Below are positions 24,352-37,314 of a stretch of DNA of 37,314 nt, piece by piece. The stretch covers positions 1-37,314 of the forward strand of contig NZ_JAUSUQ010000019.1 in NCBI RefSeq assembly GCF_030814135.1. The letters run 5' to 3'. This stretch comes from Caldalkalibacillus uzonensis (GTDB taxonomy: Bacteria > Bacillota > Bacilli > Caldalkalibacillales > Caldalkalibacillaceae). Position 1 is the stretch's first letter. The number at the start of each line of letters is the position of its first letter. Position numbers and translations under genes: made by a program. Below the pieces are notes generated by a model, which was not told the DNA's origin, did not search any database, and worked only from the letters and a program-made list of their open reading frames with translations.

Positions 24352-26535
24352 GTATCAATTCCTCAAAGGTAAGATCCAAACATATAGTCCGTTCTGTTCA
24401 ATCTGAGCAATACCCGCCCGTTTCATAGGTAAGATCTAAACACATAAGGTCTGCGGGCTTAGTCACGTGAATGTCCGGGTTTCAATTCCTCATAGGTAAG
24501 ATCTAAACTCGAAAAATCCGGGAGGGAAAAGCGAGCTTGCGTCGAACTTGTGTTTCAATTCCTCATAGGTAAGATCTAAACTTTCCGATGTCGAATTGCT
24601 TTAAATCTGATTCGCCTGCGTTTCAATTCCTCATAGGTAAGATCTAAACGGGAGTACCGCATATTCCCGTCCATCACATTCCGTAGTTTCAATTCCTCAT
24701 AGGTAAGATCTAAACGCAAACGTTGAGATCATTTCCGCGTCCGGTTCTCGGGTTTCAATTCCTCATAGGTAAGATCTAAACCTGAACACGAGATTTTCCT
24801 TCATAAAAGATTTGCCACGTTTCAATTCCTCATAGGTAAGATCTAAACACGGATATGCCAGCAGTGCAAGGTTAACGCTGGACAAGTTTCAATTCCTCAT
24901 AGGTAAGATCTAAACTCGATAAGTTCTACTGTGAATCGTTCGTTGTGGCGTCTTTTTCAATTCCTCATAGGTAAGATCTAAACCATATTGGTTTCCAAAT
25001 GGGTTTCCATATTGGTTTCGTAGTTTCAATTCCTCATAGGTAAGATCTAAACGTGCATACTTCCACATCAAAAAAGGCCAACCATACCACGTTTCAATTC
25101 CTCATAGGTAAGATCTAAACAAATTCAACATCACACCTGCTGTATAAGAGAGGGTGAAAGTTTCAATTCCTCATAGGTAAGATCTAAACTGGCAAGTGTC
25201 ACAACATCTTCAACGCTGTCAGGGTGTTTCAATTCCTCATAGGTAAGATCTAAACTTTTCGCTCCATACCCGCCAGTCACTCCGGAATGTGCAGTTTCAA
25301 TTCCTCATAGGTAAGATCTAAACAAGGAGGCAACCCCTGTCAAAAATTCGCCTGAACGAGTTTCAATTCCTCATAGGTAAGATCTAAACCGGCGTTCAAG
25401 TTGTTTCAGTCCTTGGTTATCTCCAAGTTTCAATTCCTCATAGGTAAGATCTAAACGATCTGAGACAATGTCGAAGCATATGGCGGGATATGGTGTTTCA
25501 ATTCCTCATAGGTAAGATCTAAACGGTGCGGAACATACCGCAGACCACCTCCTTTCGTTAGCGAGTTTCAATTCCTCATAGGTAAGATCTAAACTTGCAA
25601 TAGATAATCACCTTGCCCGTCAGGGAGTCGAGTTTCAATTCCTCATAGGTAAGATCTAAACCGGGAAAAGGCCGAATCTAAAGGCGATGACGACGAAGTT
25701 TCAATTCCTCATAGGTAAGATCTAAACGTAGGATGAAATTTCTTTCCTTCCCCTTTACTTGAAAGTTTCAATTCCTCATAGGTAAGATCTAAACTCCCCG
25801 TAGGCCATAGCGTCACTCCTTTCATATTTCGGTTTCAATTCCTCATAGGTAAGATCTAAACCGTAGCCGATGCCGAACCTTTCCGTGCTGACCAAGTCGG
25901 TTTCAATTCCTCATAGGTAAGATCTAAACTTGTAAGTCCCGTTGATCCTAGCCAAAGGATCACCCCCGTTTCAATTCCTCATAGGTAAGATCTAAACTCA
26001 TCACGGCTTGCCTTTCTCTCAGCTTCTCTTGTGCGTTTCAATTCCTCATAGGTAAGATCTAAACCGGCTGTGCTGGATTCATACAATTCGTTGGTGATCA
26101 CAGTTTCAATTCCTCATAGGTAAGATCTAAACGAGGTGGATGTACAGAATGGGCCTGATCAAAGGAAGTTTCAATTCCTCATAGGTAAGATCTAAACCTG
26201 CCTACAACATATTTCCACCACTGTCTTGCCACCAGTTTCAATTCCTCATAGGTAAGATCTAAACTATACTCGATGAACGTCGGGTTTTGCGTGCGCCAAC
26301 GAGTTTCAATTCCTCATAGGTAAGATCTAAACATTACGCGAATGAAGGCGTGGATGGTTTTGAGCCATAGTTTCAATTCCTCATAGGTAAGATCTAAACG
26401 ACGAATATGATCGCCTAAAAGCGCAGGCGGAATAGGGGTTTCAATTCCTCATAGGTAAGATCTAAACCGACGAGGAAGGCAACGTCAAAGGCATCGATGA
26501 GGCGAGTTTCAATTCCTCATAGGTAAGATCTAAAC
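24352..26535 (-). CRISPR. Type I-B CRISPR array, 33 repeat units and 32 spacers
   Basis: A 30-base repeat, beginning GTTTCAATTCC and ending AGATCTAAAC on the plus strand, recurs at 66-73 base intervals; spacers are 35-43 bases. Read leftward the repeat ends in ATTGAAAC, the usual 8-base crRNA handle of type I-B. The left-most units are degenerate: 24352-24381 has three substitutions and 24420-24441 lacks eight internal bases; 24954-24983 has one substitution. Decay at the left and an AT-rich leader at the right both say that transcription runs leftward and new spacers enter near 26535. Spacers 25525-25564 and 25795-25831 read on the minus strand as a Shine-Dalgarno site plus ATG, and 26468-26505 reads DEEGNVKGIDEA, as expected for phage-derived pieces. 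Confidence 0.98.
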
Positions 26536-26659
26536 CCAAAAAGTGCTGATAATACAGTATTCGATCTATAACTTTAAAAATCCTCCTTCAATTTAAAGCT
26601 TTTAAACTTTGTTACATCAACCCTCTATCTATCTGGCTTCAAGGGTAATTTTTCATAAT
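26536..26659 (-). promoter_or_regulatory. CRISPR leader
   Basis: An AT-rich stretch of about 124 bases between the first intact repeat and the long inverted repeat. A candidate promoter on the minus strand is TTGATG (26615-26620) with TTTAAA (26592-26597) at 17-base spacing, which would start the pre-crRNA about 50 bases before the first repeat. An AAGGAGGA sequence lies in the leader without a usable start codon after it. Leader role is from position; promoter calls are by eye. Confidence 0.75.
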
Positions 26660-26717
26660 TTTCTGTGTCGTCGATCCCCGAGGTTTTTTGCACTACTTGG
26701 GATCGACGACACAGAAA
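26660..26717. repeat. 19-bp perfect inverted repeat between cas2 and the CRISPR leader
   Basis: TTTCTGTGTCGTCGATCCC (26660-26678) is matched base for base by its reverse complement at 26699-26717, with a 20-base loop that includes TTTTTT followed by GCAC. The stem is far longer than a normal terminator and has no T tract on either side. It lies 39 bases after the cas2 stop and 125 bases before the first repeat. It could separate cas mRNA from pre-crRNA, be an RNase III or Cas6 substrate, or mark the leader for spacer integration. Confidence 0.9.
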
Positions 26718-26756
26718 CTGTATAGACGCTATCTACTGAATACATCACCAAAATAT

Positions 26757-27020
26757 CTACAAAATATTCTCATCTCCACCCTTTTTTAATCCCATTTCTT
26801 CTCGTTTAGAATAACGCTTGGTTCTAAAAATATAAAAGACGACGGAGTCCTCCTCAGGATCAATCAAACGGCTAAGCTCAGTTTTCAATTTAACATAATT
26901 AGCTTGCGAGATCTCACCTTCAAACACCGAATTTTGAACCCAGTGCAAATATTTGCGGCAAATCTTCAGCGCCTTGGCTACTCTCTTCTCATTGAAATCA
27001 TACACCACAATGACAAACAC
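26757..27020 (-). CDS. cas2: Cas2, CRISPR adaptation endonuclease subunit
   Basis: 87 residues from the GTG at 27020. The ferredoxin-like core begins FVIVVYDFNEKR, with the conserved Asp at residue 8 after the first strand, then YLHWVQNSVFEGE and VVFYIFRTKRY. The open frame begins at 27089, but those extra residues overlap the end of cas1 and are absent from Cas2 proteins; GGGATGG lies about ten bases ahead of the GTG. Cas2 bridges two Cas1 dimers in the spacer integration complex. Last gene of the operon. Confidence 0.92.
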   Translation of the reverse strand: MFVIVVYDFNEKRVAKALKICRKYLHWVQNSVFEGEISQANYVKLKTELSRLIDPEEDSVVFYIFRTKRYSKREEMGLKKGGDENIL

Positions 27021-27051
27021 TGCTACAACACCATCCCTGCCTCTGTCCACC

Positions 27052-28059
27052 TTACCATAACGCCTGATAAGGCTCATATTCTTTTTCACCCAAAATATGC
27101 TTTTGAATTTTGTACAACTCCAAGCGCATTAACCGCCGGTAAGAGACGGAACGACCAAGGTGCCTGTGGCTAATAGTTGTCTTTAACCTCTTATCCATTT
27201 CGGCAACAAACGTCCGTTTTCCGCTTTCCGAAAGCAAAATACCACCTGTTTGCCGGTCAAATTCTTCCTTTGTAAGCATTTTCTTATTAAGCAAATAAAA
27301 AATCAGGCGGTCGACAAAAATTGGCTTAAAAATTTCAGCAAGATCCAGATTCAAAGAAAATCGTCTGAAATTTGTGGCATGCAAATAGCCGATACGGGGA
27401 TCAAGATACGTTTTGTAAATTTCACTCAATGCCATGGTGTAACACAGAGAGTTCCCAAAACTGATCAAGGCATTTAACCTGTTCAAGGGCGGACGCTGAC
27501 TTCTTTTTTCAAACCGAAAATCAGCATCCCCTATGATATAATCAAACGTACTGTAATAGGCTTCCCGGGCGTGGCCCTCCACAGCCATCAGTTCCTCTAC
27601 GCTTTTTTGCTGTGGAAGTATGTCCAAATGATGATCTAACCTGTCTATGCATTCCGTCAGTTGCTCTTGCCCGGATTTCACACGCGAAGTATAATACTTA
27701 ACCACCCTGCGCATCTGTCCAATGGAACCTTTAACAAACAAGCGAGCCAAAGTCAGTCTTTTTTCTTTGTCCAGATAATGCTCCGCCTGTTTTAGCACAA
27801 CATGTCCAGCATTAAGATGCTCACGGGGATAAAATGTGCCCATATAATAGCCATAATGATTAAAATAATGCACACAGATTTCTTTCTGCGAAGCAAATTC
27901 CAAAAAACGCTTGGTCACGTCCACTTCTCCAAAAATAAAAATATCGTTTGTATCTTCTACCGGTATAAATTTGCGCTGTCCGTCCGTTTCGAAATAGAGA
28001 CTATTATCTTTGCGCCGTAATTCGCCATTGTTAAAAATATACAGTGTTTTTTTCACCAT
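27052..28059 (-). CDS. cas1: Cas1, CRISPR integrase
   Basis: 335 residues from the ATG at 28059, which overlaps the cas4 stop (TGATG) and follows GGAGGAGG. The N-terminal beta domain begins KKTLYIFNNGEL; the catalytic residues are visible as Glu161 (AVEGHAREAYY), His227 (GYLHATN) and Glu242 (DLAEIFKP). Length and pattern fit the type I-B form. It cuts and joins new spacers at the leader end, together with Cas2 and probably Cas4. All catalytic residues are intact, so adaptation should be possible. Confidence 0.97.
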   Translation of the reverse strand: MVKKTLYIFNNGELRRKDNSLYFETDGQRKFIPVEDTNDIFIFGEVDVTKRFLEFASQKEICVHYFNHYGYYMGTFYPREHLNAGHVVLKQAEHYLDKEKRLTLARLFVKGSIGQMRRVVKYYTSRVKSGQEQLTECIDRLDHHLDILPQQKSVEELMAVEGHAREAYYSTFDYIIGDADFRFEKRSQRPPLNRLNALISFGNSLCYTMALSEIYKTYLDPRIGYLHATNFRRFSLNLDLAEIFKPIFVDRLIFYLLNKKMLTKEEFDRQTGGILLSESGKRTFVAEMDKRLKTTISHRHLGRSVSYRRLMRLELYKIQKHILGEKEYEPYQALW

Positions 28060-28589
28060 CAACCCTCCTCCGCCCAGCAATATTCCCGGTAAGCACATTT
28101 TTGGCAAAAGGGAATTTTTTTAGGAGGAGGGGGGACGGGAAAGCGAGCGATTTTCCGTATATCAGCAATAGCCTTGTCCAATTTTGTTTTCGCTTCAGGT
28201 GTCCATTCCACTATTTCCTTTCTGCGCTCTTTAGGAAAAAGAAGTTCACCCCTGGCTGTAATGCCCATTTGTCGCAAAGTATCTAGATAATACAAGAGTT
28301 GGTAACGCGCACTCTCCTTAAACCGGGACGACTTTTTCACTTCACCGATCACAAGTTCTCCTCGTTCTTCCCGCACACGATCAATTTTAATGTGACCAAA
28401 CGATAATTCTTTTTTATCACGCTGGTAGGTTTGATCATTGAAGAATCGTCCCAAATCAACGTTTTCATCATCCTGGTCGGCTGCAATTTGATGGACGATC
28501 AGCCACACTTCCCGCTTGCAGATGAAGTAATACCAAATGTGTACGCCAGTAACCGGCATCTCATAGGGAGCTGCCTTTACATCAGCCAT
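28059..28589 (-). CDS. cas4: Cas4, iron-sulfur nuclease for spacer processing
   Basis: 176 residues of the RecB-like Cas4 family. Cys24 (ICKREVWL) and Cys162, Cys165 and Cys171 near the C-terminus (FCQKCAYREYC) would bind a 4Fe-4S cluster; GEVKKSS carries the catalytic Glu-x-Lys. Cas4 trims prespacers and selects for the PAM, working with Cas1-Cas2. It starts after GGAGG and overlaps cas1 at its end. A 77-base gap separates it from cas3. Confidence 0.95.
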   Translation of the reverse strand: MADVKAAPYEMPVTGVHIWYYFICKREVWLIVHQIAADQDDENVDLGRFFNDQTYQRDKKELSFGHIKIDRVREERGELVIGEVKKSSRFKESARYQLLYYLDTLRQMGITARGELLFPKERRKEIVEWTPEAKTKLDKAIADIRKIARFPVPPPPKKIPFCQKCAYREYCWAEEG

Positions 28590-28666
28590 GCCTCTGCCTC
28601 CTCTGCACTACGCTTTACACCATTCTACGGCGCACCAGATGTGTCACCACAACAACTTTAGACTTT

Positions 28667-31042
28667 TTACCATATAGCGGTTACCCCTTCTGTAATAAAA
28701 CCCGTGTTTGGATCGTAATAGTCAGCAAGTGAATTGTACCCTACGTAAAAATGATCGTTAACCACCGGCGGACGGTTTTCCACTTTGGCCGGAACTGAGA
28801 CCACATATTCTTGAAACTTTATCTTTAACCTGGCCAACTGTTGGTACCTTTGAAGACTATTTTCCATGTCTATTATCTCTTCAAAGGAGGCCCAAATCCT
28901 TCTGGCTTCTTCATCTAGCTCAATAAAAATATCAATCTTAGGATACTCTTCTTCAATTAATTGAAAATCTGACACGGGAATACGTTCAGGATCTTCCTCC
29001 CCTGAAAAATAGAGAGTGCTTACAGCGTTTAAATATTTTATAGATTCACTCTTGCTCAGTTTTGTTTTGATGATCTCATAGTACTTCTCGATTAAGGGAA
29101 ACAACTCTTGTTCCTTAATTTCCTCAAATTGTTGCAACAACGCTTTTGTCTCTTCAATCGCCACTTTTGGATAAACCAACCCGGCGTAAGAGCCTTTTTT
29201 CCCATTCCACAAATGCATGATGTGAACCGTTCCTGTGCGCAATCCATTCCGGTTACAACGCCCAGATGATTGAACAATGCTTTCCATGGGAGACAGATCC
29301 CGATAAATCACATCAAAATCAATATCTACTCCTGCCTCAACAAGTTGAGTGCTCACCACAATCCGATATTTACCCGCTTTTATTTCCCTAATCCGTTTTA
29401 ATCTTTCTTTAGGTGGAATATGCGTAGATAAAAAGGCTATTGGCTCGTCAAATTTCGTTTTCAATTCAGCAAATAGTTCTTTGGCAGATGAAATGGTGTT
29501 CAATATAAATAAATAGGAACGCTCAGGATAAAGATTCAACCCTTCTACAAACTCTTCTATCGTTTGTTTTGTGGAAACATTCGGGAATAAACGAACCCTG
29601 TCCATCTGGTTGAAATACTTTTGCCGGTGGCACAACTCGATTAACCCGTCAGCTGGTTCAAATAACTTAGGCTGTGTTGCTGTTAACAGAATGACATCCG
29701 TATTCATCCCACGCGTCAATTCAAGCAACATCTCCCTCATCAAGGGCCAAAATTTTACAGGAACGGCCTGTATTTCATCGATGACCAAAATAGCATTCGC
29801 CAAACGGTGAAACTTCCGCATCGCACGATTGCGATTGCTAATCAGAGTTTGAAACAACTGAACAAACGTGGTGCAGATCAATTCTGATTGCCAGCCTTCC
29901 ATCAAAATACGGGCCTGATTCTCGTTAAAATCATACTCGGCATCACCGAACATCTCCTCATAGGGATCCACCATGGAGTGGTGTTTCATCAACATAAAAG
30001 GATCAACTGGAAAAGGCTGATATCGCAACACATTTTCAAACACTTTCGCATTTTGATCAATGACACTTAAAAATGGCAGAGCATAAATGATACGTGGGGC
30101 AATTCCTCTTTCACACTTTCTACGCTCTCTTAACTGCAAAGCTGCTTTCAGCGATATAATCGTTTTTCCCAGTCCTGTTGGTAAGTTTATGGAAAATAAC
30201 CGGCCCGGGGCTTGTTCCAGATTCTCCTTCACTTCACGATATGCCTGTTCACGCAGACGGTTAATCCCTGCTAAATTCCAATTTTGTTTGGCCCGATACT
30301 CATCTACACATAAAGAGTTTATATCTTTACGTTCGATTCTCAGCTTCTCCTGAAATGCTGCTTGATTTTTATCGGCATCCAACAAGAGGGAGTATAGAGA
30401 ACAATATTTGTAATAGAACTGGGTCGTTTGGACCGTTTGGGGTTTCAACTCTCTGCGGATTTTCCTGCGCCAATGGCGGATGTCCTTTTCGAAAAACGTT
30501 TCTACCCACTGTGTGACTTGTTCTTCTGTAAGGGGGTGTAAACTTTTGATTGTTTCAGGCAGAAAGGACGCCAAGTGAAACACAATGTCATTCCATCCAG
30601 CATAGTCAATCGCTTTTGCTTGTTCAAGCAGAGGATGGCGTTCTTCTTGAGGGATATTAACTTCTGAGAACAAATTGTTCATATTTCCATGATGCCGTTT
30701 GACGGCCAAAAATAAGAAAAGCGGTTCATAAGAAGCATGTTGCTGAGGTTCGAGATTTTTTTTCCCTATAAAATAGCTCACGATGGCTGATAAAAGGGAA
30801 TGTCTGTTTAGTGGCGTTTTCTTTTTATCTTCCGAAAGTATATAGTCTTGAAAATAAGATGTAGCTTTTGCGAAATCATGAAAAACGGCGGCCACGCACA
30901 ATAGGTCACGTAGCCTCCGCTTTTCTTCAGTTGTTTCCCAGCCGGTAAACTGACGCTGTTCCCACAGCTGCTGAACAGCTTTGAGCACTCCTGCCAAATG
31001 ATTTTGAAGTGATTGGTCGGGATGGGAATACAAGACATTCAT
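28667..31042 (-). CDS. cas3: Cas3, HD nuclease-helicase
   Basis: 791 residues. The N-terminal HD nuclease shows His55-Asp56 (VFHDFAKA), His81, His117-His118 (KRHHGN) and Asp222 (LLDADKN). The superfamily 2 helicase follows with Walker A LPTGLGKT (287-294), DEIQ (422-425), STQLVEAGVDID and the arginine-finger motif SGRCNRNG. It unwinds and degrades target DNA after Cascade binding. The ATG overlaps the cas5 stop (ATGA). All motifs are present, so interference should be possible if crRNA is made. Confidence 0.96.
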   Translation of the reverse strand: MNVLYSHPDQSLQNHLAGVLKAVQQLWEQRQFTGWETTEEKRRLRDLLCVAAVFHDFAKATSYFQDYILSEDKKKTPLNRHSLLSAIVSYFIGKKNLEPQQHASYEPLFLFLAVKRHHGNMNNLFSEVNIPQEERHPLLEQAKAIDYAGWNDIVFHLASFLPETIKSLHPLTEEQVTQWVETFFEKDIRHWRRKIRRELKPQTVQTTQFYYKYCSLYSLLLDADKNQAAFQEKLRIERKDINSLCVDEYRAKQNWNLAGINRLREQAYREVKENLEQAPGRLFSINLPTGLGKTIISLKAALQLRERRKCERGIAPRIIYALPFLSVIDQNAKVFENVLRYQPFPVDPFMLMKHHSMVDPYEEMFGDAEYDFNENQARILMEGWQSELICTTFVQLFQTLISNRNRAMRKFHRLANAILVIDEIQAVPVKFWPLMREMLLELTRGMNTDVILLTATQPKLFEPADGLIELCHRQKYFNQMDRVRLFPNVSTKQTIEEFVEGLNLYPERSYLFILNTISSAKELFAELKTKFDEPIAFLSTHIPPKERLKRIREIKAGKYRIVVSTQLVEAGVDIDFDVIYRDLSPMESIVQSSGRCNRNGLRTGTVHIMHLWNGKKGSYAGLVYPKVAIEETKALLQQFEEIKEQELFPLIEKYYEIIKTKLSKSESIKYLNAVSTLYFSGEEDPERIPVSDFQLIEEEYPKIDIFIELDEEARRIWASFEEIIDMENSLQRYQQLARLKIKFQEYVVSVPAKVENRPPVVNDHFYVGYNSLADYYDPNTGFITEGVTAIW

Positions 31043-31821
31043 AAAACCTCACCTTGTTGAACAACGCTTTCCGAAATACGCTCATTGAGGAAAACGTAAC
31101 GGTATATTGTCCCGTTATTTCCAGTTCCTTCATAATAATGGGCCACATCTGCTTCAATCGTTTGGCCGTTCATATCAAACAAACATTCTTCATAGGCCGA
31201 TACAATCCGGACATCATTCATATCCAAAGGAAGTCGTTCCTTTTTGTACCTTTTCCCCGGTTGGAGCCGAACCCCTTTATGCCGGATAAGAGATAACGGA
31301 ACCACCGTATGCATTTCTACAGGTTCGCCTGTTGACTTTTTCCAGTGGCCGTCTATTTCATCTACAAATTGAAAGTTAGCCAGTAACTCGCTCAAGCCAA
31401 GCGAAACTGTATAATATGTCTTATGTTGTTTGATATGACTAACCAGCTTGTTATATAGAGCTTCATCATCCATAGCAACGAATAATCGGAACCGGGCATC
31501 TTTCAAAAATTCTGTGCGGATCTGCGTTCTTGCACCTTCCCTCCGTTGTTTGGGCACCCATACATTCCCTTTGGTATTAATTAAGTTTAGACCAAACATG
31601 ATTTTCTTGACCGGATGGATTAAGCCAACTCCAATGCGCGTATGAGCCTCTTTTAATTGAGTTAGATACATGTTATTTTCCTTTGACAAGCCCAAGACAG
31701 CTCCAAGTATCCCATAAGCGGCTGTAGGTGGAAGAACAGAGAAAGTTAAGGGGGAGGAAGTTGAATAGTATTTCCGAAAGTGTCCCCACTCCCCCCATAT
31801 GTCAAAAATCAATGTTCGCAT
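31039..31821 (-). CDS. cas5: Cas5, Cascade subunit (type I-B)
   Basis: 260 residues of the Cas5 RAMP family. The N-terminal pattern LIFDIWGEWGHFRKYYSTSSPLTF is followed by PPTAAYGILGAVLG, which is typical of the I-B (Csh-type) branch. Cas5 caps the 5' handle of the crRNA and contacts Cas8b. It ends in a four-base overlap with cas3 and starts 14 bases after cas7. I see no sign that it has taken on an RNA-cleaving role as in type I-C, but the lack of a local cas6 makes this worth testing. Confidence 0.95.
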   Translation of the reverse strand: MRTLIFDIWGEWGHFRKYYSTSSPLTFSVLPPTAAYGILGAVLGLSKENNMYLTQLKEAHTRIGVGLIHPVKKIMFGLNLINTKGNVWVPKQRREGARTQIRTEFLKDARFRLFVAMDDEALYNKLVSHIKQHKTYYTVSLGLSELLANFQFVDEIDGHWKKSTGEPVEMHTVVPLSLIRHKGVRLQPGKRYKKERLPLDMNDVRIVSAYEECLFDMNGQTIEADVAHYYEGTGNNGTIYRYVFLNERISESVVQQGEVL

Positions 31822-31835
31822 GGCTGGCCACGCTC

Positions 31836-32792
31836 CTAATAGATGAGTTCTTGTGTTTTAATTCCAAGTCGATTCAACTCTTCAAGCAGGTTATGGGACA
31901 AATTCATTTGCGAATCAAACCGATATTGTACCTCTTGAATTTTGTCTCTCTCTTCTGCCAGTTTTTCTAACAACAGCGACAGATCCAACGTACCATCGGA
32001 TACATGACGAACTTCTTCTTCCGCTTTTTCAGTGTGGAAACGAATTAAGCGGTTTAACTCTCCGATATGGAAACAATCTTCACGATAAACCACACGCAGC
32101 AATAAGCGAGGTTGTTGCCCCACCTTACTGCGGGAGATCAAGTTTTTGGTTCCGTTCCAAAGGCCTTCCAGCAAAAGTGCAACATCCTCTTCAGTCATAT
32201 GGGTGTGTTCCGCCGCTTTTTCATTGATCACGCCATAAAAAGCAATTAAGGAATACGGAACAACATACTCTTCCCGAAACGTTTTCCGCGTTTGTTTATC
32301 TCCTGAAGCAAAAGCGCCAGTCCCCTTTATATATTCAAGCTTGACCCGGTGCAGGGATTGTCCCATTTGGAACTGAACGGGACCGGTCAAGGTAATGGAA
32401 CTTTTTTCTTTCGAACTTTTCTCAACGGGGATCGTTCCGCCGAAAAGCCGTACATCAATACATTCTCGAAGCAGATTCTCCTGAATCAAACGCTTCATCT
32501 CAGCAAGTTTCAGATTTGACTTGGATACCTTTTCACCATTTTCCCATAAAAAGTCTTCCGCCCGGTGCTTGGCATCCTGAATGATCCCTTCATCATCTGA
32601 TATCTCCCGGACAAAAATTTCTTTTCCCCGATACTCATGAAGATAATCACGAATCGTACGTTTGAGGCGAACATCAGTGACGATATTACGCCCTGTCTCT
32701 TCATCGATGCGCGGCTTGTTTTCATCCACCGGATCTCCGTTCGGATTTGTCCAACTGGCGTCATAAAGAAAGAGAATTTCAGAACGATTCAT
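31836..32792 (-). CDS. cas7: Cas7 (Csh2-type), Cascade backbone subunit
   Basis: 318 residues of the Cas7/Csh2 family. It begins SEILFLYDASWTNPNGDP, with DVRLKRTIRDYL and RLFGGTIPVEK further on, all characteristic of type I-B Cas7. Several copies coat the crRNA spacer. It starts two bases after the cas8b stop, so coupling is certain, and precedes cas5 by 14 bases. Confidence 0.95.
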   Translation of the reverse strand: MNRSEILFLYDASWTNPNGDPVDENKPRIDEETGRNIVTDVRLKRTIRDYLHEYRGKEIFVREISDDEGIIQDAKHRAEDFLWENGEKVSKSNLKLAEMKRLIQENLLRECIDVRLFGGTIPVEKSSKEKSSITLTGPVQFQMGQSLHRVKLEYIKGTGAFASGDKQTRKTFREEYVVPYSLIAFYGVINEKAAEHTHMTEEDVALLLEGLWNGTKNLISRSKVGQQPRLLLRVVYREDCFHIGELNRLIRFHTEKAEEEVRHVSDGTLDLSLLLEKLAEERDKIQEVQYRFDSQMNLSHNLLEELNRLGIKTQELIY

Positions 32793-32794
32793 CT

Positions 32795-34594
32795 TTATTT
32801 TTCCTCCCCTTCAGTGGTCTCTTCTCTTTTACCATACAAAATGTTCTCTATATGATGAACCAGGTTCATCCCGCTCACAAAACAAAAATTCATTTCATCG
32901 ACTGAAAGTTTCCATCCTGTCCCGGCCCGCAAAAAGAAGTCGGAAATCTCTTCAGCCAGTAACTGTTTCTTAGCATCAAACGCATTGTACTGCTGAAGCT
33001 TGTCCTGAACTTTGGGCAACAAGCCATGGAAATCTTTTTCCTGCATTTTTAAGCCTTTTAATTGTTTCAAGAAAGGCTGGGAGTTCCTTTCATACTGTTG
33101 TTTTTTAAGTAACATCTGGGTTAGGGCCCCTAAAAGGAATAGTGCTTTTTTCTCAGGACGGTCAAGATGGGGGCCATATAACTCAAAAATACCTTCAAAA
33201 TGTTTTGACGGCACAAAATTCCCCTCCCCGGTTTCCAATATCTTTAGTTCGTCAAAGAAAATCACATTCATCAACGCATCCCGGACGACATGAAAGATTT
33301 TATCGGTATCAGAACCCTCACCTTCCCGTTCAGAAGTACCGGCCACATGTTTGCGAATCTCCTGCATAAAGAATCTGGTTAAAAAGCGGATGTCAAGGGG
33401 TTGGCCGCGAAAGACAGCGGATGTAATCTCTAAAAAATATTTATCCAAATCCGATTGACGCTTGTTGTCATCGGATTTATTAAAGAAAGTCCTGATTCTC
33501 CCCAAGTGGTAGCGACGATATGGGCTCGGGCCTTCCTGCAACGGAAACCGTTGCTCTACCTGTTTTTTGGCCTCAAATATTTTCCGCAGACGGGAAGGGA
33601 TAACATCTTCAACCACCATCAGGATGCGCTCCGCAGACTGAACTTTCCTTAAAAACAAAAGGTGGAAAAGCACATCATCGTCAGCCTCTTGTAAGGCATC
33701 CAATATATCCTCTTCGTCTGCTAATGAGTTTTCAATTTGTTGTTGTGAATGCAACGTTTTGTATTTGTTCCCGCTTCTTAGAATTTCTGTGACTTCATCC
33801 CGGGTATCTGGCTCTCCGAATATAAACTCTGGTATTAGGTGATATTCGAGACCGTAAAAACGGAATTTAAGCCTGTTTTCCAAAAAACGTTTCCCTTCCT
33901 GAAGGCACAGATTACAGTCCATACAAACAGGGTGGTTTCGCCAGGCTAGCTCTTTATCAAATTCGCCACTGATAAAGCCTGGCTTATCATTGGTATAGAA
34001 TTTAAAAGCAGGTGACCCGGCCATAACGACATCTTGTCGGTGGCCACATACTGAACAGACCTGGTCTTTTGCTGAAACTTCACTGTCCTTTTCCTGAACC
34101 AACCGGGTAAAAAGAGAAACAAAAACAGGATCTTCTTTGAGATAATGACCGTTGATCTTTAAGGTCAAGACACAACCACCGTTTGTTTCGCTTAGTTTTG
34201 TTTCAAGAGTTCGATAAATATCATCCCGGTTTTTATGAATGATATTATAAATATTTTGTATATAAGAAATATCCGGTTCAGAAAAATTGGCTTTTTGTTT
34301 GATCACTTTGTCAAACCAGGCCATGAATTTTTTATCAAAAGTTTTCGCCAAATCGGTCACTATCGTTGTCGGAGAAAAATTGGGCCCGTTTGAAGCACCA
34401 CGACGATAAAGGTATTTGTGAGACTCCCCCTCCTCACATTCTTCCATTTCCACTTTCCACTGGTCATTTTCGATTTCAACAAGGAATACATGGGGATAAT
34501 TAGTTTCGGAGATGGGCTCGATTAGCACATCTAACGTCTCTTTCGATTCCTGTTGGAGAACCCACTTACCCAATTCCTGGACGGCAGTGATCAT
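32795..34594 (-). CDS. cas8b: Cas8b (Csh1-type), Cascade large subunit
   Basis: 599 residues. A zinc-ribbon-like set of cysteines lies at Cys180 and Cys183 (VCSVCGH) and Cys224, Cys227 and Cys230 (CMDCNLC), the hallmark of the Csh1 branch. The rest is mainly alpha-helical. It recognises the PAM and recruits Cas3. The ATG follows GAGGTGA. It is the first gene of the visible operon; type I-B operons usually have cas6 just ahead of it, but nothing like Cas6 is present upstream here. Confidence 0.93.
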   Translation of the reverse strand: MITAVQELGKWVLQQESKETLDVLIEPISETNYPHVFLVEIENDQWKVEMEECEEGESHKYLYRRGASNGPNFSPTTIVTDLAKTFDKKFMAWFDKVIKQKANFSEPDISYIQNIYNIIHKNRDDIYRTLETKLSETNGGCVLTLKINGHYLKEDPVFVSLFTRLVQEKDSEVSAKDQVCSVCGHRQDVVMAGSPAFKFYTNDKPGFISGEFDKELAWRNHPVCMDCNLCLQEGKRFLENRLKFRFYGLEYHLIPEFIFGEPDTRDEVTEILRSGNKYKTLHSQQQIENSLADEEDILDALQEADDDVLFHLLFLRKVQSAERILMVVEDVIPSRLRKIFEAKKQVEQRFPLQEGPSPYRRYHLGRIRTFFNKSDDNKRQSDLDKYFLEITSAVFRGQPLDIRFLTRFFMQEIRKHVAGTSEREGEGSDTDKIFHVVRDALMNVIFFDELKILETGEGNFVPSKHFEGIFELYGPHLDRPEKKALFLLGALTQMLLKKQQYERNSQPFLKQLKGLKMQEKDFHGLLPKVQDKLQQYNAFDAKKQLLAEEISDFFLRAGTGWKLSVDEMNFCFVSGMNLVHHIENILYGKREETTEGEEK

Positions 34595-34683
34595 ACGTTC
34601 ACCTCGCTTTTTCCCGCACCTTGGCTTAACCTCAAAAGAAAAACTTATCAGTCTGTATGAACCAATTTATGAACCAATGCGAA

Positions 34684-34710
34684 CTAACTATGGTTGTCCC
34701 AGGTCATCAC
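34684..34710 (-). other. Possible leader peptide in the cas 5' untranslated region
   Basis: After AAAAGGGGGGATC, a GTG-ATG pair opens a frame of eight codons (VMTWDNHS) that stops at 34684. The strong G-rich ribosome site is the only support. It would lie near the 5' end of the predicted cas mRNA and could regulate it or be chance. Confidence 0.25.
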
Positions 34711-34744
34711 TTATTAAGATCCCCCCTTTTTAAACCAGCCATTT

Positions 34745-34783
34745 ATCATAAATTTAACAGATGATTTTGACACATGCGTGTCA
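34745..34783 (-). promoter_or_regulatory. Promoter and palindrome of the cas operon
   Basis: On the minus strand GTGTCA (34768-34773) and TATGAT (34745-34750) stand 17 bases apart. The -35 is the right half of TGACACGCATGTGTCA (34768-34783), an inverted repeat of TGACAC with a four-base centre, suited to a dimeric regulator. The predicted start near 34738 leaves a 140-base leader that also contains ATGAACCAAT twice in direct repeat (34657-34678). Confidence 0.6.
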
Positions 34784-34976
34784 GGGAACATTAATTCGGT
34801 TTCTATAATACTGATTAACAGGTATAAAGACCTAAGCCAAAAAACCTATTTATTCCTTTCTATTCTTTTCTAAAAATTCCTGCTAAGGAAATGTTTTTTG
34901 AAATTTATTTTTAAAATTCAGATAAATCTGGATACCTAGAAACAAATGAGAGGTATCACCTTGGTTTACTGTTCAT
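34784..34976. other. AT-rich region upstream of the cas promoter, no gene
   Basis: This is where cas6 would be expected. Translating it leftward by eye gives only short frames broken by stops; no RAMP-type glycine-rich loop or other Cas6-like sequence was recognised. Confidence 0.5.
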
Positions 34977-35280
34977 TCAAGTCACTACTTCATGTTTGGT
35001 GCGTTTGCCGCTTTCTCCCAGCCTTGATGGACACTGACGGTTTTTTGATCTCTCTTCCTCTCTTGTTTTTCTCTCGTCTCTTTGTGTACAGTCCATCCAC
35101 TTCCACGAAAAGCACGTTCTGTTCGAACGGAGAAGGTTCCCCGGAGATGACTTCGGTGTTCAGAAGCTGTTGCCTATGACTTCATAACTGATGACACTAA
35201 TGTCGGGATAACCCAAAAGTTTCTCTGATACTCTTCGTGTTTGACGATAGGATGTGCCTGTCACTGCAAGTTCAATGGCC
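34977..35280 (-). pseudogene. ISLre2/UPF0236 transposase relic
   Basis: Conceptual translation leftward gives AIELAVTGTSYRQTRRVSEK and LLGYPDISVISYE in one frame, PSPFEQNVLFVEVDGLYTKR in a second, then SVHQGWEKAAN in a third. These pieces in this order match the middle part of ISLre2-family (UPF0236) transposases, which carry a VLFxEVDGLY motif and an xVHxGW motif. Frameshifts and stops break it, and both ends are missing, so it is dead. It lies directly upstream of the cas operon. Confidence 0.8.
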
Positions 35281-35439
35281 ATATTTTACACAACAGGACC
35301 CATCCTTTTTTGTTCGCCAAAAGCTAAATACTAATCCAGCAAACAGACTTAATGTCATGTTTTACGGTCTAGGTAATAATTTCTCCTCAGTTCTATGTGC
35401 TTGCAGCTATAAATCTGCGACCTTCATTCGTTACATAAC
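35281..35439. other. Short intergenic region, origin unclear
   Basis: No supported gene. A short leftward frame (MTLSLFAGLVFSFWRTKKDG) lacks a ribosome site. It may be part of the transposase relic's flank. Confidence 0.3.
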
Positions 35440-35874
35440 TTATTGTTTGAGTTCAACCGGTTGTGTTCTTTTCTCGTTTATGACCTGTACAAACTTTTCG
35501 ATATTTTCAGGTGCGATGATAGTATAATCGTACGTATTGTAATGCAGAATATACCGTTCTTTGGACAATGCAATCGAGGCGACTTGCTGGTACGTTTTCT
35601 CGATTTTTTTAATTGAAGCCAATGGAATCACGCGTTTAAACGGACCGAATCGAATAATCAACTCATTGTCTGTAACAATATAGATTGTACTGAACCATAG
35701 CCAAAAAATAAAAAAGCTGCTGATCCCGAAAAGCAGGAAAAAGAACAGGCTGACACCCAAACCGGCTTCGTAATAGACAGGTATGGCGAGACCTACGGCA
35801 AGTCCGGCGAAAAGCAGTCCTGACCCCCAAACGATTGTACGGTAAATTGTGTCTTTGCTGGCATTAAATTTCAT
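35440..35874 (-). CDS. Bacterial PH-domain membrane protein
   Basis: 144 residues from the ATG at 35874, with GGAAGG ten bases upstream. Two membrane helices (about 14-34 and 40-62) are followed by a PH-like beta domain: STIYIVTDNELIIRFGPFKRVIPLASIKKIEKT is the recognisable core, and YDYTIIAPENIEKFVQVI is the closing helix. Small proteins of this kind (YyaB/DUF1200-like) are common in bacilli; function unknown. It stands alone and appears intact. Confidence 0.75.
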   Translation of the reverse strand: MKFNASKDTIYRTIVWGSGLLFAGLAVGLAIPVYYEAGLGVSLFFFLLFGISSFFIFWLWFSTIYIVTDNELIIRFGPFKRVIPLASIKKIEKTYQQVASIALSKERYILHYNTYDYTIIAPENIEKFVQVINEKRTQPVELKQ

Positions 35875-35889
35875 CAATCACACACCTTC

Positions 35890-36250
35890 CTTTCATAAAA
35901 TGCTTTTTATGGCTATTTCAAAGACCACCGCAGAGATTGGAAACAGGAGTTATTGGCTGATGACCAGGCACAGTATCTGTAACGAGGGGCAAAAACAGGT
36001 TGTTGGTACCGAGCTGCATGATGAGGACAATGTAACATTTGTTTTCATTGGAACCCAGCCCCACGTCGGGTCTGATTTTAAAATCCATACACCACTTTAA
36101 TAAAACAATGTAAAAACAGCTGTTTTGCCTCAGTTGCTTATCTTTTGACAACGCGTATTCTATCGATGTCATCCCCGCGGTACGCCAATTCGGAGGGAAT
36201 GCCAATACAATCCTTCGCTGGGTCATAGCCACTTGTTTTTCTATTAAATT
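35890..36250. pseudogene. Decayed coding traces, family not identified
   Basis: On the plus strand about 35907-35982 reads YGYFKDHRRDWKQELLADD and stops, then about 35979-36100 reads VVGTELHDEDNVTFVFIGTQ and stops. On the minus strand about 36138-36225 reads CIGIPSELAYRGDDIDRIRV. These look like real protein pieces, without starts or ribosome sites. I do not recognise the families; they suggest remnants of lost genes. Confidence 0.3.
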
Positions 36251-36258
36251 TCTTGGGA

Positions 36259-36264
36259 TATAAT
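36259..36264 (+). promoter_or_regulatory. -10 element of the hepT-mntA promoter
   Basis: A perfect TATAAT lies 48 bases before the hepT start. The best -35 (TTGTTT, 36233-36238) is 20 bases away, so the promoter is weak or helped by a factor. Confidence 0.45.
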
Positions 36265-36311
36265 AATAGAAGCAAGTATATCGTGCGGTCGAGGAGGAGG
36301 CTTGTCTTATA

Positions 36312-36704
36312 ATGCAAGATATTCGTTGGAAGCAACGTTATGATAATTATCGCAAAGCCTTTCATCAATTAACGGAATTTATTACAAAAGGTGAGTTAAA
36401 CAAATTTGAAGTACAGGGGCTTATTCAATGTTTTGAATATACGTTTGAGCTTGGCTGGAAAACGATGAAAGACTATCTGGAACAAGAGGGGTTTAATGTT
36501 CCCAGTCCTCGCAAAGCCATTCAAACCGCCTTTCAATCACAATTAATAACAGATGGTCACACATGGATTGATATGCTGGAAAAAAGAAATTTGATGGCAC
36601 ACACATATAATGAAAAATATGCCGAGGAGGCAGAACGTCTGATCCGGGAAAGATACTACCTCGTTTTAAAGGAACTGTGTGAGAAGCTGGAGGTAGAAAG
36701 ATGA
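36312..36704 (+). CDS. hepT: HepT-like HEPN toxin (HI0074 family)
   Basis: 130 residues, all alpha-helical in pattern. The HEPN RNase motif RX4HXY is intact: Arg92, His97 and Tyr99 in KRNLMAHTYN. HI0074-type patterns FEYTFELGWKTMKDYL and PRKAIQTAF are present. The family cleaves RNA and is neutralised when its partner adds AMP to the motif tyrosine. The ATG follows GAGGAGG by 11 bases; the gene overlaps mntA by four bases (ATGA). It is read toward the window end, 1.7 kb from the cas operon. Confidence 0.85.
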   Translation: MQDIRWKQRYDNYRKAFHQLTEFITKGELNKFEVQGLIQCFEYTFELGWKTMKDYLEQEGFNVPSPRKAIQTAFQSQLITDGHTWIDMLEKRNLMAHTYNEKYAEEAERLIRERYYLVLKELCEKLEVER

Positions 36705-37033
36705 AATTTGGACTTAATGACCGGGACATGAACTTCATTGTTCAAACAATCTCCACATTCGATGAAATTGAAAAAGCTGTCCTTTTCGGTTCACGTGCCA
36801 AAGGAAACTATTCGGCTGGCTCCGATATTGATATCGCTATCTACGGTAAAAAGGTTGATATACACGTTGTCTCAAAACTACATTCATTGTTGGAAGATCA
36901 AAGCCACATGCCCTATTTGTTTGATGTGATTGATGGATCGCACCTTATGCATCAGGATTTAAAAGAGCACATTGAGCGTGTCGGTCAGGTGATATATGAG
37001 AAAAGTAGAGATGATTACCAGACAGAGGCATAG
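36701..37033 (+). CDS. mntA: MntA-like minimal nucleotidyltransferase antitoxin
   Basis: 110 residues with the minimal nucleotidyltransferase signature GSX10DXD: Gly30-Ser31 through Asp42-x-Asp44 in FGSRAKGNYSAGSDIDIAI. It should transfer AMP to the HepT tyrosine and so silence the toxin. Translational overlap with hepT (ATGA) and the toxin-first order are usual for this module. The ATG lies inside the end of hepT with GGAGG upstream. Confidence 0.87.
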   Translation: MKFGLNDRDMNFIVQTISTFDEIEKAVLFGSRAKGNYSAGSDIDIAIYGKKVDIHVVSKLHSLLEDQSHMPYLFDVIDGSHLMHQDLKEHIERVGQVIYEKSRDDYQTEA

Positions 37034-37062
37034 TAGCCGTAGAGTTGACTCATAGCAAACAG

Positions 37063-37314
37063 TCACAATCCTACTTGCTGAATGTTCTTGGCAGCATTGA
37101 TGTCCCAGTCATGGTGAATTCTACAGGCAGGACATGTCCATGCTCTCGCTTTAATTGCATTACACTCAGCGGCATTCGTCTGCGCCTGGTTTTTCATACA
37201 TTTCTTTTTGTTGTCGGAAATTGGCCCTGACATGACACAGTTTCCTTCGGCAGCTCACTTGTGTTCATGGGCAGGACTCGCCCCAGGGAATAACGAAAGT
37301 GCCGGAAAACGAAA
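37063..37314 (-). pseudogene. Degenerate tnpB (IS200/IS605-type) 3' end, runs off the window
   Basis: Read leftward, the last codons before the TGA at 37063 give ARAWTCPACRIHHDWDIN followed by AAKNIQQVGL, the C-terminal zinc finger and conserved D-x-NAAxNI tail of TnpB. The first CxxC pair of the zinc finger is replaced by unrelated residues and an in-frame stop lies near 37257, so this copy is broken or heavily decayed. No clear right-end hairpin was found between it and mntA. Confidence 0.75.

Follow-up and report, generated by a model that had tools for sequence, protein, structure and literature searches.

Cas6 is dispensable in some type I CRISPR systems, and most type III loci apparently make use of a Cas6 supplied in trans, according to the part of a published account that deals with this protein (PMC12669027). 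Passages of two other reports describe the sharing of Cas6 or of crRNAs between loci (PMC11127173, PMC5576922), and the authors of a further study propose, in the section concerned, that one Cas6 could serve type I-B arrays whose repeats are near-identical (PMC12596717). In type I-C systems Cas5 has been named, in an excerpt of an earlier paper, as the likely substitute for Cas6 (PMC3150331). A phrase search of the literature for orphan, stand-alone or solitary cas6 found no paper on such genes. Cas6 sharing between loci is already known, and the locus of Caldalkalibacillus uzonensis described here is a new example of it.

The type I-B operon and its array

The window, that is the whole stretch of DNA analysed (37,314 nucleotides), is contig C19 of a 3.88-Mb genome of 53 contigs, the completeness of which is rated 100%. 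It carries a type I-B operon in the order cas8b-7-5-3-4-1-2 (26757-34594, minus strand), and all seven genes are uninterrupted open frames that score above their NCBIfam cut-offs, in agreement with the intact gene set originally predicted. The features of the operon, its array and the stretch upstream of cas8b are given below, where C17 and C23 are two further contigs of the same genome.

24352-26535, crRNA sense on the minus strand: CRISPR array of 33 repeats, repeat end ATTGAAAC
26536-26756, minus strand: array leader, homologous by alignment to its counterparts at the C17 and C23 arrays, containing a 38-nt inverted repeat at 26670-26707
26757-27089, minus strand: cas2, frame as listed, with the family match beginning at residue 25 (TIGR01573, 44.6 bits)
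27052-28107, minus strand: cas1b, sole cas1 match of the genome (TIGR03641, 459.9 bits)
28059-28589, minus strand: cas4 (TIGR00372, 87 bits)
28667-31042, minus strand: cas3 (TIGR01587 and TIGR01596, both above cut-off)
31039-31821, minus strand: cas5b (TIGR02592, 117 bits; no match to TIGR01876)
31836-32792, minus strand: cas7, Csh2 (TIGR02590, 312 bits)
32795-34594, minus strand: cas8b of the TM1802 type (TIGR02556, 351.7 bits; Pfam PF09484), 87% identical to the Tuberibacillus calidus and Caenibacillus caldisaponilyticus copies
34595-34733, minus strand: retained cas6-cas8b spacer, alignable with relatives to 17 bases past their cas6 stop (alignment and shuffles)
34734-34987, no strand assigned: stretch between the retained spacer and the insertion sequence (IS) fragment, with no cas6 DNA recognised by Cas6 searches and shuffles
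35050-35396, minus strand: ISLre2-family transposase fragment with in-frame stops and a frame change (family match and tblastn)

The Cas8b signature of type I-B is present, with both TIGR02556 and TIGR02591 above cut-off, as are Cas7, Cas5b, Cas3 and the adaptation genes, each again above its NCBIfam cut-off; cas6, which is usual in type I-B though not strictly defining for it, is absent from the locus. A genome-wide search returned a single cas1 match, and there is likewise one TM1802-type Cas8b match in the genome, both located in the window.

The repeat reads GTTTCAATTCCTCATAGGTAAGATCTAAAC on the plus strand, and its ATTGAAAC end in crRNA sense is what we take to be the usual type I-B handle. 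The expected 33 units were recovered as 32 repeats found by pattern (30 exact, 2 variant) and one degenerate copy near 24412 in the register of family D3, the degenerate repeats lying mainly at the leader-distal end. The spacers of the array gave zero matches in the phage collection.

Upstream of the cas operon, at 36312-37033, a nucleotidyltransferase and its substrate-binding partner are encoded (PF08780, PF18765), presumably a pair like the MntA/HepT toxin-antitoxin pairs. The contig end at 37211-37314 is 97-98% identical to places on C33 and C23, that on C23 overlapping an IS110-like transposase frame, and 37055-37147 finds matches of about 74-77% at seven places in a genome of the same genus (G001). 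The end of the window from 37055 to 37314 is repetitive and probably represents mobile-element ends at which the assembly breaks.

The stretch upstream of cas8b

It had been predicted that the window holds no Cas6-like frame, and every search agreed with this. TIGR01877, applied genome-wide at E<=10, gave no match in the window and one elsewhere, on C17; a six-row Cas6 profile returned the same lone C17 match genome-wide, and tblastn of the window with three Cas6 proteins reached a best E of only 2.5. These searches gave no cas6 frame within the interval 34595-35440 named at the outset. A decayed cas6 was also sought in the 846 bases upstream of cas8b and was rejected, as the alignment to Caenibacillus cas6 DNA was equalled by 469 of 500 shuffles and the protein searches were empty.

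A scan of named genomes with Cas8b yielded two loci for comparison, those of T. calidus DSM 17572 (L027) and C. caldisaponilyticus B157 (L028), which differ little in this region and amount to a single comparison. Their type I-B loci resemble the window in the cas8b-to-cas2 gene order, with proteins 73-91% identical (the Cas8b proteins 87% in both cases), and in having the same repeat core, the ATTGAAAC end and the leader inverted repeat. They differ in that cas6 is present, ending 139 bases ahead of cas8b. The cas8b-upstream regions of these two near-identical relatives thus showed no native absence of cas6.

It was also observed that cas4, cas1 and cas2 (26757-28589) are 73-76% identical to those of the relatives, compared with 85-91% for cas8b, cas7, cas5 and cas3; the adaptation genes seem, on these identities, to have another history or a faster rate than the effector genes and cas3.

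The window retains about 139 bases of the spacer that separates cas6 from cas8b in the relatives. For its 60 cas8b-proximal bases none of 500 shuffles reached the alignment score, nor did any of 500 for bases 60-135; over a wider range, bases 60 to 406 upstream of cas8b, the score was reached by 30 of 500. Both named relatives carry cas6 at this place and the retained spacer ends just past the end of their cas6 (17 bases after the stop), so loss of cas6 from this operon lineage, as first proposed, is supported by these alignments over native absence.

An ISLre2 relic had been reported upstream of cas8b. Such a relic is real, with stops and a frame change, but it is partial, and the interval 34595-35280 includes bases that do not belong to it. 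The fragment corresponds to residues 79-193 of a 461-residue intact copy on contig C8 (tblastn E 1.7e-12); its family match, at 36.2 bits (E 8.2e-9), stays below the ISLre2 cut-off of 200. A weak further piece extending to 34988 (E 2.4) is insignificant alone. With this piece the fragment lies about 394-802 bases upstream of cas8b, and 455-802 bases without it, within the stretch occupied by cas6 in the relatives (140-901 bases upstream).

Of the proposed IS-linked loss of cas6, the loss is the part that stands; the link is unproven, as some 254 unassigned bases lie between the fragment and the point where the retained spacer stops; no junction showed an IS end, nor were the ends of the element found. 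The fragment as the cause of the loss is possible but unproven. In another genome of the class (G115; L102, contig C66, 13361-14051) the operon cas6 consists of only the C-terminal 113 residues, 92% identical to the operon Cas6 of G126, close to the end of the contig. The DNA before it, inspected by eye, resembles an IS transposase gene in the opposite orientation. By analogy with this shortened operon cas6 beside IS-looking DNA, IS-mediated loss of cas6 is plausible as a mechanism.

The Cas6 gene on contig C17

The remainder of the genome was searched for cas6 and a second array, as had been suggested, and this gave the C17 cas6, the C17 array and the C23 array. The C17 cas6 (L023:1171-1947, minus strand) is an open frame that scores 138 bits to TIGR01877 (cut-off 58.65). 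Behind it come a leader and an array with 13 repeats; compared with the window repeat, 12 of these carry one difference and the remaining one carries two. The main C17 repeat differs from that of the window at 1 of 30 positions, and the C23 array, with 47 repeats, at 2 of 30. The last 25 repeat bases in crRNA sense are identical in all three arrays; the C17 and C23 repeats are closer to each other than to the window repeat, both having GAAC at the plus-strand end. No two of the three arrays have a spacer in common (30, 12 and 46 compared for the window, C17 and C23), and one 22-base spacer match lies inside the C23 array. Among 12 proteins scanned of the 42 and 18 frames listed (20 kb of C17 and 12.5 kb of C23), Cas6 was the only Cas protein.

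Among solved Cas6 structures the C17 Cas6 has 6 matching sequences at E<=0.001 (best E 1.2e-17). In the alignment with structure chain 3pkm, its Tyr38, His51 and Lys63 fall opposite a Tyr, a His and a Lys; we take 3pkm to be Pyrococcus furiosus Cas6 and these to be its catalytic residues. Tyr38, His51 and Lys63, together with four glycines of the C-terminal G-rich loop, are invariant in an alignment of six Cas6 proteins. On these features the C17 Cas6 looks functional. Cas6 in trans calls for an intact Cas6 beside an array with a compatible repeat elsewhere in the genome, and this is what C17 holds; the suggestion that another locus supplies cas6 is supported in that C17, with its intact gene and near-identical repeat, could do so.

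The protein is 46-47% identical to the operon Cas6 of T. calidus and C. caldisaponilyticus and 40% to the Cas6 of G001. Since its identity to the relatives' operon Cas6 is that low, it is, judged by sequence, of a different Cas6 lineage from theirs. The possibility that it is the relocated operon gene was considered and rejected, the other operon proteins being 73-91% identical to those of the relatives. In a tree of 37 Cas6 rows it grouped loosely (84/87, branch not starred) with the proteins of G001, G292, G173 and G363, the Tuberibacillus/Caenibacillus pair lying apart from this group.

The leaders of the window, C17 and C23 arrays align, and each has a 38-nt inverted repeat at a like distance. 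This element, GTCGATC-N24-GATCGAC, occurs in CRISPR leaders. With one mismatch allowed it gave 33 hits in 97 fetched stretches, chosen around cas6, cas8b and arrays and so not a random sample (613,604 bases, some overlapping), and 0 in reversed controls; the distinct copies number 27, and for 26 of them a CRISPR repeat of the window kind lies at a distance of about 100-146 bases. Besides the window copy (26670-26707) the sites include L023:1148, L024:7741, L033:10633, L027:6068 and 17977, L028:3825 and 17977, L098:2790, L100:9449, L104:15309, L105:5827, L111:12692 and L112:1955, among others. Because the outer bases are nearly invariant and the position 6 pair is broken in 7 of 26, the element is better explained as a putative DNA site bound by a protein than as an RNA stem. 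Such a site might act in spacer acquisition or in the expression of the array; its novelty is not claimed.

A survey of the class covered 398 genomes, of which 28 had a TIGR02556 match at E<=0.001 (13 above cut-off) and 86 a Cas6 match. In 25 of the 28 a Cas6 match lies within 10 kb of Cas8b on the same contig and strand, upstream in 21 and about 6.1-6.2 kb downstream in 4; G115, with its shortened cas6, is counted among these 25. The three genomes without one are the window genome, G024 and G032, and the window genome is the only such case among the 13 above cut-off.

In G024, assembled as one contig, no Cas6 match accompanies the Cas8b operon and the sole match belongs to a second operon, at a distance of 41.6 kb. 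The two operons (L097 and L098; about 40 kb apart) have arrays nearby that share an identical repeat, with 73 and 39 copies in the parts fetched; the Cas8b of this genome falls below the cut-off of both Cas8b models. G024 is thus like the window genome in its Cas8b operon without cas6, its single Cas6 match elsewhere and the same repeat at both places; it is unlike it in the lender, which in G024 is a further operon containing cas3 and cas1 and here is a bare cas6-array piece. G032 has cas6, cas1 and an array at the end of contig C63 and, on C93, a Cas8b with a same-repeat array at the contig start; it was set aside as a second natural case, a contig break inside the array being likely. A cas6-less operon with Cas6 elsewhere was therefore seen twice in the survey sample, in the window genome and in G024.

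Explanations and comparison with known systems

Taken together, the type I-B operon of the window most probably had its cas6 deleted or replaced and stays functional through the only Cas6 detected in the genome, that of C17. Transcripts of all three arrays (window, C17 and C23) would be cleaved by this Cas6 at 8 nt from the end of the repeat, which leaves the ATTGAAAC handle; crRNAs from the window would load on a complex of Cas8b, Cas7 and Cas5, and Cas3 would destroy the target. In return, Cas1, Cas2 and Cas4 of the window would probably serve the C17 and C23 arrays. We infer both expression of the C17 Cas6 and its action on transcripts of the window array, as well as the exchange of adaptation proteins. 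Weighing against this explanation are the divergence of the C17 Cas6 from the Cas6 of the relatives, the differences between the repeats close to the crRNA-sense 5' end, which Cas6 proteins are able to recognise, and the 30 of 500 shuffles that reached the score in the wider spacer test; as to recent activity, the lack of phage matches of the window array also counts against it.

The operon may instead have arrived already without cas6, or with only its cas8b-to-cas2 part transferred, and have persisted through a resident Cas6 with a compatible repeat. This is a real possibility, though we lean against it, and it differs in history only, the working mechanism being identical. The matches of the flank at 34650-37314 in G001 are all short and repeat-like, with none in three other members of the order, and G001 itself, with its type I-C operon, gave no match to TM1802-type Cas8b; the lower identity of cas4, cas1 and cas2 than of cas8b, cas7, cas5 and cas3 (73-76% vs 85-91%) also points to locus parts with different histories. 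On the other hand, the ISLre2 fragment in the stretch expected for cas6 fits loss in place, and no donor is known. No empty site could be demonstrated from this flank in G001 and the three other order members searched.

It is improbable that the system is decaying, with the window array no longer processed and the C17 Cas6 serving the C17 and C23 arrays alone, as the absence of cas6 from the operon, the greater mutual likeness of the C17 and C23 repeats and the unmatched window spacers might suggest. The seven cas frames are uninterrupted, 30 of the 33 repeats are identical with the degenerate ones mainly leader-distal, and the sole cas1 and the sole TM1802-type Cas8b are in the window, so that the other arrays would be partnerless.

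Least likely is processing by Cas5 or a host RNase in place of Cas6, for which the use of Cas5 in type I-C (the excerpt in PMC3150331) and Haloferax interference without Cas6, achieved with specially made RNAs in the experiments excerpted (PMC4326828), could be adduced: the window Cas5 is of the Cas5b type, matching TIGR02592 and not the I-C model TIGR01876 (E<=0.001), which the I-C Cas5 of G001 does match at 131.7 bits; it is 88-89% identical to the Cas5 of cas6-bearing operons; the predicted repeat fold is weak (-1.8 kcal/mol vs -16.8 for the G001 I-C repeat); and with an intact Cas6 available in the genome, host RNase processing is not needed. The earlier proposal that Cas5 acts here as in type I-C is accordingly not upheld.

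Some observations bear on the origin of the lender. In G001 a cas6-leader-array piece was found, the upstream DNA of which is 87% identical over 363 bases to that upstream of the C23 array. The DNA before the G001 cas6 resembles the C23 leader at 80% over 97 bases (L033:9600-10834 compared with L024:7150-8000), ending about 10 bases before the first C23 repeat, and after this leader-like stretch cas6, leader and array follow in turn. Judging from this one pair, leader ends may be places at which cas6-leader-array pieces become joined. The type I-C operon of G001 is on another contig. In G363 cas6 is followed by arrays and preceded by RNase J and aspartate kinase genes; in G292 a cas6 is present and no array was found in the 16 kb fetched.

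A more general but doubtful proposal would be that cas6-leader-array pieces and cas8b operons are separate, interchangeable modules in these Bacillota, and that constancy of repeat core, handle and leader might allow an operon to give up its cas6 and rely on a resident gene from a different lineage. Signs in its favour are the cas6-array pieces of C17, G001 and G363, with no recognised effector gene adjoining among partly scanned frames, the leader junction in G001, and the operon cas6 losses in the window genome, G024 and G115, the last with an IS-like insert.

If, as we favour, the C17 Cas6 serves the window array, this locus is a clean example from nature of a type I-B operon, complete in effector and adaptation genes, that appears to depend on a Cas6 encoded at another locus and of another lineage. 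Two questions become testable: how far Cas6 and repeat may diverge and yet work together, and whether type I-B needs Cas6 as a bound partner or as a cutter only. The case also cautions that an operon should not be judged defective from a single locus.

As in the window genome, a cas6-less locus stands beside a cas6-bearing one where Cas6 is used in trans, that is in most type III loci and in cases from Sulfolobus islandicus and Pyrococcus furiosus, as the passages concerned describe them (PMC12669027, PMC11127173, PMC5576922). In the present case, by contrast, Cas6 would be borrowed by a type I-B operon that has adaptation genes of its own, and the lending locus consists of cas6 and an array, with no effector genes recognised alongside. 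The plasmid and provirus type I-B systems of Haloferax lucentense are similar in having near-identical repeats, with one Cas6 suggested for all arrays (PMC12596717, section concerned). Both of those loci, as described in the same section, retain cas6 and one is without adaptation genes (PMC12596717), whereas the window operon has kept its adaptation genes and is without cas6.
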